This document shows positions 16,528 to 55,731 of a stretch of 64,000 nucleotides of DNA, piece after piece; the first letter of the stretch is position 1; every line of letters starts with the position of its first letter. Both the position numbers and the translations under genes were made by a program. The notes beneath the pieces were generated by a model. The model did no database searches. It was not told the origin of the DNA and saw only the letters and a list, made by a program, of their open reading frames with translations. Source of the DNA: a bacterium EF100-94H03 bin56 (lineage in GTDB: Bacteria > Pseudomonadota > Alphaproteobacteria > SP197); the NCBI GenBank assembly GCA_002238685.1, contig MPMV01000018.1, forward strand, positions 1 to 64,000, given 5' to 3'.

Positions 16528-17075
16528 ATGCGGTCATTGAGAGACTGGTCGGTCCGCCATGCACGCGGCCTCGCCCGTCTCTATGTCGTCTTCGAACATC
16601 TCGTGGTCGCCATCGAGCCGCTGGCGCGCCTCATCGGCCACGAACGCCTTGAACGGCCGGTCGCCGCCGTGGAGAGAACGATCAAGGGAACCCTCTTCGA
16701 CTGCCGCATGTGCGGCGCCTGCGTGCTCTCCGACACGGGCATGTCCTGCCCCCGGAACTGCCCGAAGAACGTGCTGAACGGCCCCTGTGGCGGCGTGCGC
16801 GGGGACGGCGGCCGCGAGGGCCCTGCCCGCCCGCCCCCTGTCGGTGTGGGGGTGCCGGAGGGGGGGGCGGAGTAGGGGGGGCGGGCGGGTGGGGGCGCGG
16901 CCGGCGGCTGCGAGGTCCTGCCCGGCATGACCTGTGTCTGGGTCAAGGCCGTTGAAGGGGACCGGAACATGGGGGGCGGCACCATCGGCCTCCTGCCGGC
17001 AAGCGATCACCGCCTGTCGGGGCGGTCGTCCTGGCTCGGCATCCTGCGCCAGCGTTCGAGGGACGGCGCGCGGTG
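16528..17075 (+). CDS. MetV-like methylenetetrahydrofolate reductase C-terminal-domain protein (PF12225), split by a sequence artefact
   Basis: The N-terminal frame (16528-16875) contains the Cys-rich signature DCRMCGACVLSDTGMSCP then RNCPKN and NGPCGGVR, as in MetV subunits that carry an Fe-S cluster. The C-terminal frame resumes at about 16899 with CEVLPGMTCVWVKAVEGDR and ends RQRSRDGAR at 17075, touching the next gene. Between them lie ~96 G/C-rich bases that look like a corrupted repeat of the flanking sequence (see findings). The native gene is probably one intact ORF of ~150 residues. In acetogens MetV binds MetF and supplies electrons; here it sits between two MetF genes. Confidence 0.8.
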
Positions 17076-51918: not shown

Positions 51919-52101
51919 CTATACGTTGCCGCGACGGCGATTTCCAGTCCCGCAGGCGTCCGGTGACGCGTCATCGGCGGCCGGCGACGCCTTGAAAGCC
52001 TGGTCAATGGTACGCTGCACGAGATTCCTGACATACCAGGACGACAGCGCCTCGCTGGCCGGTCCGGCGGGCTCGTAGACGCAACGACCCGTCTCGTCCA
52101 T
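51919..52101 (-). CDS. Small hypothetical protein
   Basis: A 60-residue frame directly after the LysM-protein gene on the same strand (14-base gap). It begins [20 protein letters not shown] and contains [19 protein letters not shown], which looks helical and coding in composition. The ribosome site is weak (AAGGCGGC). I do not recognise the family. It could be a real co-transcribed small gene or chance. Confidence 0.35.
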
Positions 52102-52115
52102 CGGGCGCGCCGCCT

Positions 52116-54289
52116 TCAGTTCTCCGCCACCCTGTCCTGCGGCATGACGAAGATCTGGCCGGGATAGATCAGGTGGGGATCGGCAATCTGGTTCCGGTTG
52201 GCCTCGTAGATGAGGGTATAGAGGATGCCGCGGCCGTAAGTCCGGCGGGCGATCCGCCACAAGTTGTTGCCGGGCTGGATCACGATCAGCCGGTCAGAGG
52301 CCTCCGGCATGACGAACGAGGCACGCACGAAGGGCGTCTCGAGACGGGCGACGACGTCACCTTCCTCGTTGATCTCGTCGACTCTGAGCGAATGGGTTCC
52401 CTCGCCAACCGAATCGTCAAGCGCCACCGTCCACTCTCCGTCCTCGGCATCGGCCACGCCGGCAACGTGGTCGTCGACGTAGACAACGACCGTGTCACCC
52501 GGAGTTGCCTGGCCACCCATCGAAACATTGCCTTCCTCGTCATAGCTGAGGCTGTCGAGAGCCAGGTCGCCACCGCCGGAGATACCGATCCCTTCCTCTC
52601 CTCCCTGGATGACCTCGACACCGCCGCCATCCTCATCATCCATCATCACGGTCAGGACATCGTCGGCCTCGTCACCCGTCGGTTCCTGCGGCACCGAAAC
52701 CACGACAATCGTGTCGGAATGCGTGGTCTCGCCCTCTCCGTTCACGGAACTGAGCTTCAACTCATGGGCTCCGGAATCCAGGGGTTCCTCGGTAACGATC
52801 ACCCAGTCACCGGCGGCGTCGGCCACGGTCTCGCCGACCACGTCATCGCCCGACGTCACGACAATGGTCGCGCCGGGCTCCCCCGAGCCTGCCATCACTG
52901 CATCTCCGGTGGTCTCGACCCTCACAACATCGAAGTCCGGACCGGCCTCGACATCCTCTTCCGTGACCACGTCAACGTCATCCGTGACGGTGGCGTCATC
53001 CTCGCTCACTGTGGTGGCGGCGGTGCCGTCTTCCACGGTCGAGACGTCCGTGGCGGCCGTCATCTCATCGCCGTCGGTGACCGCGGCGTCATCCTCGCTC
53101 ACGGCAACGGTGGTGCCGTCCTCCAGGGGTGCGGCGTCCGCATCGGCCATCATCTCACCGTCATCGGTGACGGTGGCGTCATCCTCGCTCTCCGTGGTGG
53201 CGGCGGTGCCGTCTTCCACGGTCGAGACGTCCGTGGCGGCCACCATCTCATCGCCGTCGGTGACCGCGGCGTCATCCTCGCTCACGGCAACGGTGGTGCC
53301 GTCCTCCAGGGGTGCGGCGTCCGCATCGGCCATCATCTCATCGTCATCGGTGACGGTGGCGTCATCCTCGCTCACCGTGGCGGCGGCGGTGCCGTCTTCC
53401 ACGGTCGAGACGTCCGTGGCGGCCATCATCTCATCGTCCTCGGCGACCGCGGCGTCATCCTCGCTCACCGTGGCGGTGGCGGTGCCATCTTCCACGGTCG
53501 AGACGTCCGTCGCAGCCATCATCTCATCGTCATCTGTGACCGCGGCGTCATCCTCGCTCACCGTGGTGGCGGCGGTGCCGTCCTCCACGGTCGAGACGTC
53601 CGTGGCGGCCATCATCTCATCATCGTCGCTGACCGCGGCGTCATCCTCGCTCACCGTGGCGGCGGTGGTGCCATCTTCCACGGTCGAGACGTCCGTCGCG
53701 GCCATCATCTCATCGTCGTCGGTGACGTCATCCTCGCTCACCGTGGCGGCGGCGGCGCCGGCTTCCACCGTCGAGACGTCCGTGGGGGCGGCGAGCCGAG
53801 CGTCATCGTCGCTCACCGTGGCGGCGGCGGTGTCGTCCTCCACGGTCGAGACGTCCGTGTCGGCCATCATCTCATCGTCGTCGGTGACCGCGGCGTCATC
53901 CTCGCTCACCGTGGCGGCGGCGGTGCCGTCTTCCACGGTCGAGACGTCGGTGGCGGTCACCATCTCATCGTCCTCGGCGACCGCGGCATCATCCTCGCTC
54001 ACGGCAACGGCGGCGCCATCCTCCACCGTTGCGGCATCCATGTCCGAGATCGTGGTGCCGGTCGTCTCCCGCGCGCCCCCCCGCCATCCTCCCCGCCCCC
54101 GGCAACGGCGGCCCTCTCCTCCACCGTTGCGGCATCCATGTCGGAGATCGTGGTGTCGGTCGTCTCCGAGCCGGCATCAACGGGTTCGGTGGTGACGGTG
54201 TCGCCGGGTCCACGGTCGTCGCGCAGCACAAGCCACAGGGCAAGGGCCAGAACGGCCAGCACGACGATCACGGCGCTGAGTTTCTTCAT
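52116..54289 (-). CDS. LysM-domain envelope protein with Ig-like domains and long acidic repeat region (frame broken by an artefact)
   Basis: The start at 54289 gives a membrane anchor/signal ([20 protein letters not shown]) and a periplasmic stem. About twelve ~30-residue acidic repeats follow (core [20 protein letters not shown]). Next come two Ig-like domains: [20 protein letters not shown]... HELKLSSV and [15 protein letters not shown]... [10 protein letters not shown]-terminal LysM closes the protein ([20 protein letters not shown] then [19 protein letters not shown]), which should bind peptidoglycan. The frame shifts between ~54020 and 54120, where a ~98-base corrupted duplication lies (see findings); the native protein is probably ~690 residues. 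Relatives lack the repeat array. Confidence 0.85.
52961..54041 (-). repeat. In-frame tandem repeat array (~93-bp units, about 12 copies)
   Basis: About twelve units of 25-32 codons encode variants of [29 protein letters not shown]. Two units are a different subtype ([19 protein letters not shown]). Unit lengths differ by whole codons, so the frame is kept. The product is extremely Asp/Glu/Thr/Ser/Val/Ala-rich and should be extended and disordered. Such arrays change copy number easily. Confidence 0.9.
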
Positions 54290-54452
54290 GTCGGAATTCC
54301 CGGGCGATCAAGAGTGCTTCCCTCCTCGGGAGAGGAAGCGGACGGTGGCGGCAGGGATGCGTTCCTCAAGACAGATGTCACGGACAAACCGGGCGCGCGG
54401 TGACGGCAAGACTACCATCGACCGGCCGAATGTGCGAGGCCGCTCATTCCGG

Positions 54453-54480
54453 TTGTCCGGTCACGCGAAATCTCTATGTT
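54453..54480 (+). promoter_or_regulatory. Sigma70-like promoter of icd
   Basis: TTGTCC at 54453-54458, 16-base spacer, TATGTT at 54475-54480, 30 bases before the icd ATG. GCTTCC...GGAAGC at 54316-54339, also in this gap, could form a small hairpin on the LysM side. Confidence 0.5.
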
Positions 54481-54510
54481 GCGCCGCAGCATGGGGCGGA
54501 GACAAAGGCC

Positions 54511-55731
54511 ATGGCAAGAATTCCGGTAGAGAACCCGGTGGTCGAACTCGACGGCGACGAGATGACCCGCATCATCTGGGGGTTCATCAGGGACCGGCTG
54601 ATCCTTCCCTGGCTTGATGTCGAACTTCTTTACCATGACCTGGGCATCGAATCACGCGATGCGACGGACGACCGCATCACCGTGGAGGCTGCCCAGGCCA
54701 TCAAGCGGCACGGTGTCGGCGTCAAGTGCGCCACCATCACGCCCGACGAGGCGCGGGTCAGGGAATTCGGGCTGAAGAAGATGTGGCTGTCGCCCAATGG
54801 CACGATCCGCAACATCCTCGGCGGCACGGTCTTCCGTCAGCCCATCATCTGTTCCAACGTCCCCCGCCTCGTCCCCGGCTGGACCAGGCCCATCGTCATC
54901 GGCCGCCACGCCTTCGGCGATCAGTACCGGGCGACGGATTTCGTGGTGCCGGGAGCCGGTACGCTCACCGTCACGTTCACCCCCGCCGACGGCAGCGAGG
55001 CCATAGAAAGAACAGTCCACGATTTCCCGGCAGGCGGCGTGGCCCTTGCCATGTACAATCTCGACGAGTCGATCCGCGGCTTTGCGAGGGCCTGCATGAA
55101 TTATGGCCTCAGCCTCGGCTGGCCCGTCTACCTGTCCACCAAGAACACCATACTCAAGGCCTATGACGGGCGCTTCAAGGACCTCTTCCAGGAGGTCTTC
55201 GACAAGGAATTCGCGGAGAGGTTTGCTGCCCGGGGCATCGTCTATGAACACCGTCTCATCGACGACATGGTGGCCGCGGCCCTGAAGTGGGAGGGCGGTT
55301 TCGTATGGGCCTGCAAGAACTACGATGGCGACGTGCAATCGGACACCGTCGCCCAGGGTTTCGGCTCCCTGGGATTGATGACATCGGTGCTGATGACGCC
55401 CGACGGCTCGGCGGTGGAAGCCGAGGCGGCCCACGGCACGGTGACGCGGCACTTCCGCCAGCACCAGCAGGGCCGGGAGACCTCGACCAACCCCATCGCC
55501 TCGATCTTCGCCTGGACGCGCGGCCTCAAGTCAAGAGGCGAGTTCGACGGGACACCGGATGTCACCGGGTTTGCCGAGATTCTGGAGGACGTCTGCGTTG
55601 CCACCGTCGAACAGGGTCACATGACGAAGGATCTCGCTCTCCTGATCGATCCGGACCAGCCATGGCTCACCACCAGCGCCTTCCTCCACAAACTCGAGGA
55701 AGGCCTCCAGGCGCGATTGCGGGGCAGCTAG
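54511..55731 (+). CDS. icd: NADP-dependent isocitrate dehydrogenase (homodimeric, eukaryote-like type)
   Basis: A 406-residue TCA-cycle enzyme oxidising isocitrate to 2-oxoglutarate. [32 protein letters not shown]-like [48 protein letters not shown] and [12 protein letters not shown] are all diagnostic. The last also carries the NADP-selecting context. The ATG at 54511 gives the normal start ([16 protein letters not shown]); the open frame from 54400 is leader. It stands alone behind its own promoter. Confidence 0.97.

Follow-up and report, generated by a model that had tools for sequence, protein, structure and literature searches.

An expanded acidic repeat array in the linker of a predicted membrane-anchored Ig-LysM protein from four closely related alphaproteobacteria

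How a periplasm-spanning protein can hold membrane and wall together is limited by the length of its spacer. In the alphaproteobacterium EF100-94H03 bin56 (lineage SP197), a gene for a protein with two bacterial immunoglobulin-like (Ig) domains and a LysM domain carries, between these domains and a hydrophobic anchor, several hundred residues of acidic tandem repeats. The locus raises the question of what such an array is: a spacer that has grown under some constraint, a by-product of repeat growth, a folded stalk, or in part a fault of the assembly. The DNA analysed here, referred to as the window, is a stretch of 64,000 nucleotides (contig MPMV01000018.1, positions 1 to 64,000). An earlier note on it had described a twelve-unit acidic stem that replaces a normally short linker, and had suggested a spacer or cation-binding stalk of variable length.

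The gene occupies positions 52116-54289 of the minus strand, with its ATG at 54289 and its stop at 52116; its extent was read from the frames and from a collinear, intact gene in a sister species, G007. The first 30 residues (54200-54289) form an N-terminal membrane anchor that aligns with the anchor of G007, upstream DNA included. Downstream of the array, and on the same strand, lie a first Ig domain (Pfam Big_6, PF17936; 52701-52910; E = 1.6e-8), a second Ig domain (Big_13, PF19077; 52356-52514; E = 1.2e-9, the best stretch being profile positions 33-89 of 102) and a C-terminal LysM domain (PF01476; 52140-52283; E = 1.2e-7). All three are present in the window sequence in this order, and each is matched by 17 of 17 alignment rows. 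The hydrophobic anchor is encoded 5' of the array, but as assembled it stands in another frame; in G007 the two are in frame. Peptidoglycan binding is predicted from the LysM match, and we infer topology, wall binding, disorder of the array and its function as a spacer.

The gene is divergent from that of an NADP-dependent isocitrate dehydrogenase (IDH; 54400-55731), and in several further genomes of this family the two are likewise near neighbours. On its other side, between it and a class II DAHP synthase gene, a conserved 60-aa frame (minus strand, 51919-52101) is 85-90% identical in loci L043 and L041 and 53-73% identical over 32-47 residues in seven of the 15 other loci searched; it is probably a real small gene.

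The array itself (minus strand, 52965-54047) was delimited with Tandem Repeats Finder and from its translation. Over 52972-53789 the program reported a period of 93 (8.9 copies, score 1111) and one of 183 (4.5 copies, score 1191), with additional rows extending to 54002. The encoded 361 residues comprise about 12 units of 25-31 aa, with 12 unit starts and 11 complete units (31, 31, 25, 29, 31, 31, 31, 30, 31, 30 and 31 aa), and their autocorrelation at lag 31 is 0.50, as against at most 0.26 in 200 shuffles. The composition is 22.4% D, 10.0% E, 16.1% T and 6.4% S, with 117 residues of D+E and a single one of K+R+H. Two subtypes can be told apart by their unlike endings, units 8 and 10 (30 aa) and the 31-aa type, and unit lengths differ by whole codons. 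In these respects the earlier description holds: the size of the array, its acidic D/E/T/S-rich make-up and its position are as claimed there, and so are the two subtypes and the whole-codon differences. The unit profile found no second array locus in the window's genome. A known repeat domain was sought and dropped: a Pfam search of the 641-aa frame returned LysM only, and phmmer gave no match for the array among PDB sequences at E <= 0.001. The sense frame of the array is the sole stop-free sense frame in the window and in G007 alike. Two plus-strand frames run over the window array (52173-54617, 814 aa; 52609-54195, 528 aa), and stop-free antisense frames number two in the window array and one in that of G007, one of them being open in both; these look like by-products rather than genes, stop-free frames being possible in GC-rich repeats of whole codons.

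How widely the array is distributed was examined with a profile of its units, which found one locus each in four of 41 genomes (the window's own, G000, and G007, G006 and G001) and no match in the other 37. These four belong to a genus represented by ten genomes and are all close relatives: G000, G007 and G001 form a 100/100 clade in a tree of IDH, from which G006 was left out for want of an IDH match, and the DAHP synthase of G006 is 95% identical to the window's. In G007 (contig JAPPGE010000076.1, MAG RHO1_bin_48) the gene is intact and encodes 782 aa, with anchor and array in one open frame; its array has fifteen units of exactly 30 aa each, a 30-aa period, and spans 445 aa with 169 D/E and zero basic residues. 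The Ig-LysM parts of G007 and G006 are 87-88% identical to the window's. In G006 (contig JAJEBJ010000048.1, MAG jk18x9bins.14) the gene starts within the array, at the end of the contig, and in G001, where no Ig-LysM match was found, the IDH contig terminates within an in-frame anchor and array. In two of the four array genomes a contig end thus truncates the array and in another the frame is broken, and metagenome assemblies that end or break frame in such arrays can hide the protein.

In the other six genus members the linker is acidic as well and 56-84 aa long, with 23-32% D+E and 0-4% K+R. The array therefore looks as if an already acidic linker had expanded in a single set of close relatives. 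It is not the same fixed array in all relatives, an outcome that the earlier note had named as counting against variability: it occurs in four of the ten genus genomes, its units are unlike between species, and there are about 12 copies in the window and 15 in G007, a comparison between species, each represented by one genome, with copy numbers taken from metagenome assemblies. Such short-read counts are provisional because the window contains exact repeats of up to 97 nt and G007 of up to 123 nt; a general warning on repeat copy counts from short-read assemblies is given in PMC6868369. The repeat count may thus still be produced by the assembly, the other outcome that the earlier note had named as counting against its reading.

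The same linker position is variable well beyond this genus. Of 16 genomes from the family, 14 have the Ig-LysM part, and its profile matched in 138 of 241 genomes sampled from the class, in proteins with an N-terminal membrane anchor. Linker length ranged from 34 to 599 aa (38 measured of 45 loci parsed; six of seven unparsed loci were read by eye and then measured, and L027 was left out), in loci deliberately chosen as the longest open frames, so that these values are no estimate of frequency. At the same position, locus L065 (genome G085) has 4.7 copies of a 165-nt repeat, and L068 (G233) has 2.3 copies of a 129-nt repeat running to the contig end; both belong to two other families of the class, and their repeats are unlike the window units in sequence, an apparent case of independent repeat growth at the same site. 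L070 and L071 have weakly periodic linkers rich in Ala, Lys and Glu. Different lineages have thus acquired extended stalks here, either of low complexity or built of repeats, and the idea that the protein family normally has a short linker is roughly true, with the amendment that linkers reach about 600 aa and that other lineages have repeats of their own. A widespread family whose spacer alone was rebuilt repeatedly, out of unrelated repeats, would amount to a natural experiment on what a disordered periplasmic linker's length and charge do to function.

Comparison of the units indicates how the arrays may have changed. Mean DNA identity of units is 0.861 within the window and 0.821 within G007, as against 0.750 between the two. 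Of the 29 units, 25 have their closest counterpart in their own genome, whereas shuffled labels gave a mean of 10.5 and a maximum of 21; the four exceptions are the units from G001 and G006, all of them from truncated arrays. Within the window, the pair of units 8-9 and the pair 10-11 seem to stem from a recent two-unit duplication, with identities of 0.978 and 0.968. Within arrays, pooled dN/dS is 0.54 and 0.46, and between units of the window and those of G007 it is 0.79; unit pairs not being independent, these values are a rough guide. Across units, the majority of acidic columns is retained. All this fits arrays that turn over through successive duplications or unequal exchange while mildly constrained. 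Turnover by duplication or recombination is suggested because the units in the two well-covered arrays most resemble those of their own genome; homogenisation within a genome is shown for these two arrays only, and recombination would be one way to bring it about. The variable-length acidic spacer proposed in the earlier note gains from this in part, since the arrays are much longer than the 56-84 aa of the six other genus members and have been homogenised separately in two genomes.

We consider it probable, with real room for doubt, that the locus encodes an inner-membrane-anchored, peptidoglycan-binding tether with a disordered polyanionic spacer that has expanded and is turning over in four close species. 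Membrane and peptidoglycan would be linked by an N-terminal transmembrane anchor, then the spacer, then the pair of bacterial Ig domains and, at the C terminus, the LysM domain. The short, already acidic spacer would have grown through in-frame duplication of a 90/93-nt unit, giving in the four species a disordered polyanionic stalk of about 360-450 residues, and unequal recombination or slippage could keep the array turning over. Such a stalk probably serves as a spacer by entropic and electrostatic means: repulsion between like charges would swell it, salt and divalent cations would screen it, and the Ig-LysM head could reach the wall and keep hold of it while its distance from the membrane varies. 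A spacer is favoured over a specific binding site because other lineages have long linkers of other composition at this position. Several points weigh against this reading. The acidic positions are more conserved across units than a free polyelectrolyte would need, although recent duplication could also explain this; for the four units of G001 and G006 the closest match lies in another genome; the window copy as assembled would not yield a joined protein; and the copy numbers stem from metagenome assemblies.

The same variation could also be read without any function at all, and we regard this as rather unlikely. If the linker tolerates nearly any length and sequence, slippage in GC-rich repeats could have left the array as a by-product that does not affect function, as might be expected from the wide spread, across the class, of linker composition and of linker length (from 34 to some 600 aa), from the different repeats that other lineages evolved and from the dN/dS of 0.79 between window and G007 units. 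Neutral growth of this kind sits less well with the lower values within arrays (0.46-0.54) and the retention of most acidic columns, and with the retention of the array in four species, nearly free of basic residues.

The frame break in the window copy needs to be resolved before that copy is built upon. Read from 54289, the anchor frame meets a stop after 96 residues, and the first ATG of the array frame lies no earlier than 54041; anchor and array are in different frames in the window assembly, and they separate at a run of seven G (minus strand, 54076-54082, located from the sequence and the frames). The description in the earlier note stands for the array but had missed this break. Around it is a G-rich tandem duplication (minus strand, 53981-54167; copies at 54079-54167 and 53981-54069) with a spacing of 98 nt, which is not a multiple of three. 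That anchor and array frames differ, and that the break coincides with the seven-G run, might be taken to mean that the break is real and that the gene is off in this genome, whether decaying or phase-variable at the run. We hold this to be unlikely. Over the 89 nt aligned, the two copies of the duplication differ at 11 positions, and at 11 of 11 one copy has G (binomial tail 0.007, taken against the 0.63 seen where units mismatch one another); G content in the patch rises to 22 in 30 nt, a density attained by 0.03% of the window's 30-mers. Because all the mismatches involve G and the patch is so G-rich, a sequencing or assembly fault is more likely than a working switch. The G007 gene aligns with the window on both sides of the patch, which is itself missing there; the duplication is also absent from G001, and in both genomes the anchor-array junction is in frame without a seven-G run, so that the run is no conserved switch. 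The array itself, moreover, retains one open frame. Elsewhere in the window, the G-richest plus-strand 30-mers, with up to 24 G in 30, lie at 16840-16930, possibly another doubtful patch.

It is very unlikely, in our estimate, that the stalk is instead folded, as a calcium-stabilised beta-solenoid or beta-roll forming a rigid or cation-switched rod. By the charge-hydropathy rule both the window and the G007 arrays fall on the disordered side, and for a swollen chain we estimate an end-to-end distance of about 18-20 nm and a contour length of 130-162 nm. The two AlphaFold2 results disagree. For five G007 units the model had no secondary structure (pLDDT 47.8), a result weakened by some alignment rows standing one unit out of register, whereas the whole window protein, modelled from three rows, showed regular strands in the array over its first 220 residues (block pLDDT 51-78), about two to each unit in its early part, with the Ig and LysM part poorly modelled. 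These strands would speak for a fold and count against plain disorder, as would the strong conservation of D/E positions between units and the uniform 30 aa of the G007 units. Little weight is placed on the strands, however, because AlphaFold2 has been reported (PMC11795689) to yield unrealistic beta-solenoids with stacked acidic residues for repeats. Foldseek with the whole-window model placed Ig-like chains of Bap and SiiE near the top of the best 50 rows, and there was no solenoid among the 50 matches listed. The window array and the G007 protein contain no GGxGxD motif, as looked for in an RTX beta-roll, and no DxDxDG motif, as in EF-hand or dockerin-like sites, and window units of 25-31 aa would be awkward to stack in a solenoid. 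A folded stalk is retained as a rival only.

A more ambitious reading, which we think equally doubtful, is an adjustable periplasmic ruler in which recombination changes copy number in populations and a calcium- or magnesium-responsive polyanion sets the reach of the LysM head, such rulers having been built independently in several lineages; if true, several alphaproteobacterial lineages would tune membrane-to-wall spacing at the same site.

The probable spacer-bearing tether can be set beside systems already described. With the anchored Big_6-Big_13-LysM family the window protein shares the domains and their order, the C-terminal LysM and the invariant LysM residues, and an N-terminal anchor that stands in another frame as assembled; the linkers of that family are mostly non-repeated, whereas the acidic array of 30-31-aa units occurs only in the window's group. 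Our literature search on the function of this family found no characterised member, and that on acidic repeats in periplasmic linkers found no paper combining all the features sought. Among the papers weighed for function, PMC7901474 describes a candidate member of the family; a LysM protein has been reported in Bradyrhizobium arachidis (PMC9927569), and RSP2543 of Rhodobacter sphaeroides was set aside, being described in PMC5442454 as an endopeptidase with LysM.

The LysM part is related to that of Kbp/YgaU (PRK11198) of E. coli (7pvc, 7vcm), with a match only at the LysM end and a score of 50.5 bits against the PRK11198 equivalog, below the NCBIfam cut-off of 134. The calcium-stabilised repeat adhesin model (NF033510) likewise scored 27.7 bits, over an Ig domain, with a cut-off of 50. 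TonB, as PMC10771500 describes it, has an inner-membrane anchor, a disordered linker that spans the periplasm and a C-terminal folded domain, and in this layout the window protein, with its predicted disorder and topology, resembles it. The TonB linker is rich in Glu-Pro and Lys-Pro, whereas Pro makes up 0.8% of the window array, which counts a single basic residue among its 361 and leads to a LysM end. The B repeats of SasG, in the account given in PMC6868369, are coding tandem repeats that form a stalk and vary in copy number. A stalk made from coding tandem repeats is what the two share; the SasG units are identical and 128 aa long, whereas those of the window are diverged, 25-31 aa long and probably periplasmic, and were compared between species only. 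A repeat-expanded linker in an envelope tether is a known sort of linker evolution, to which the window array adds a variant.
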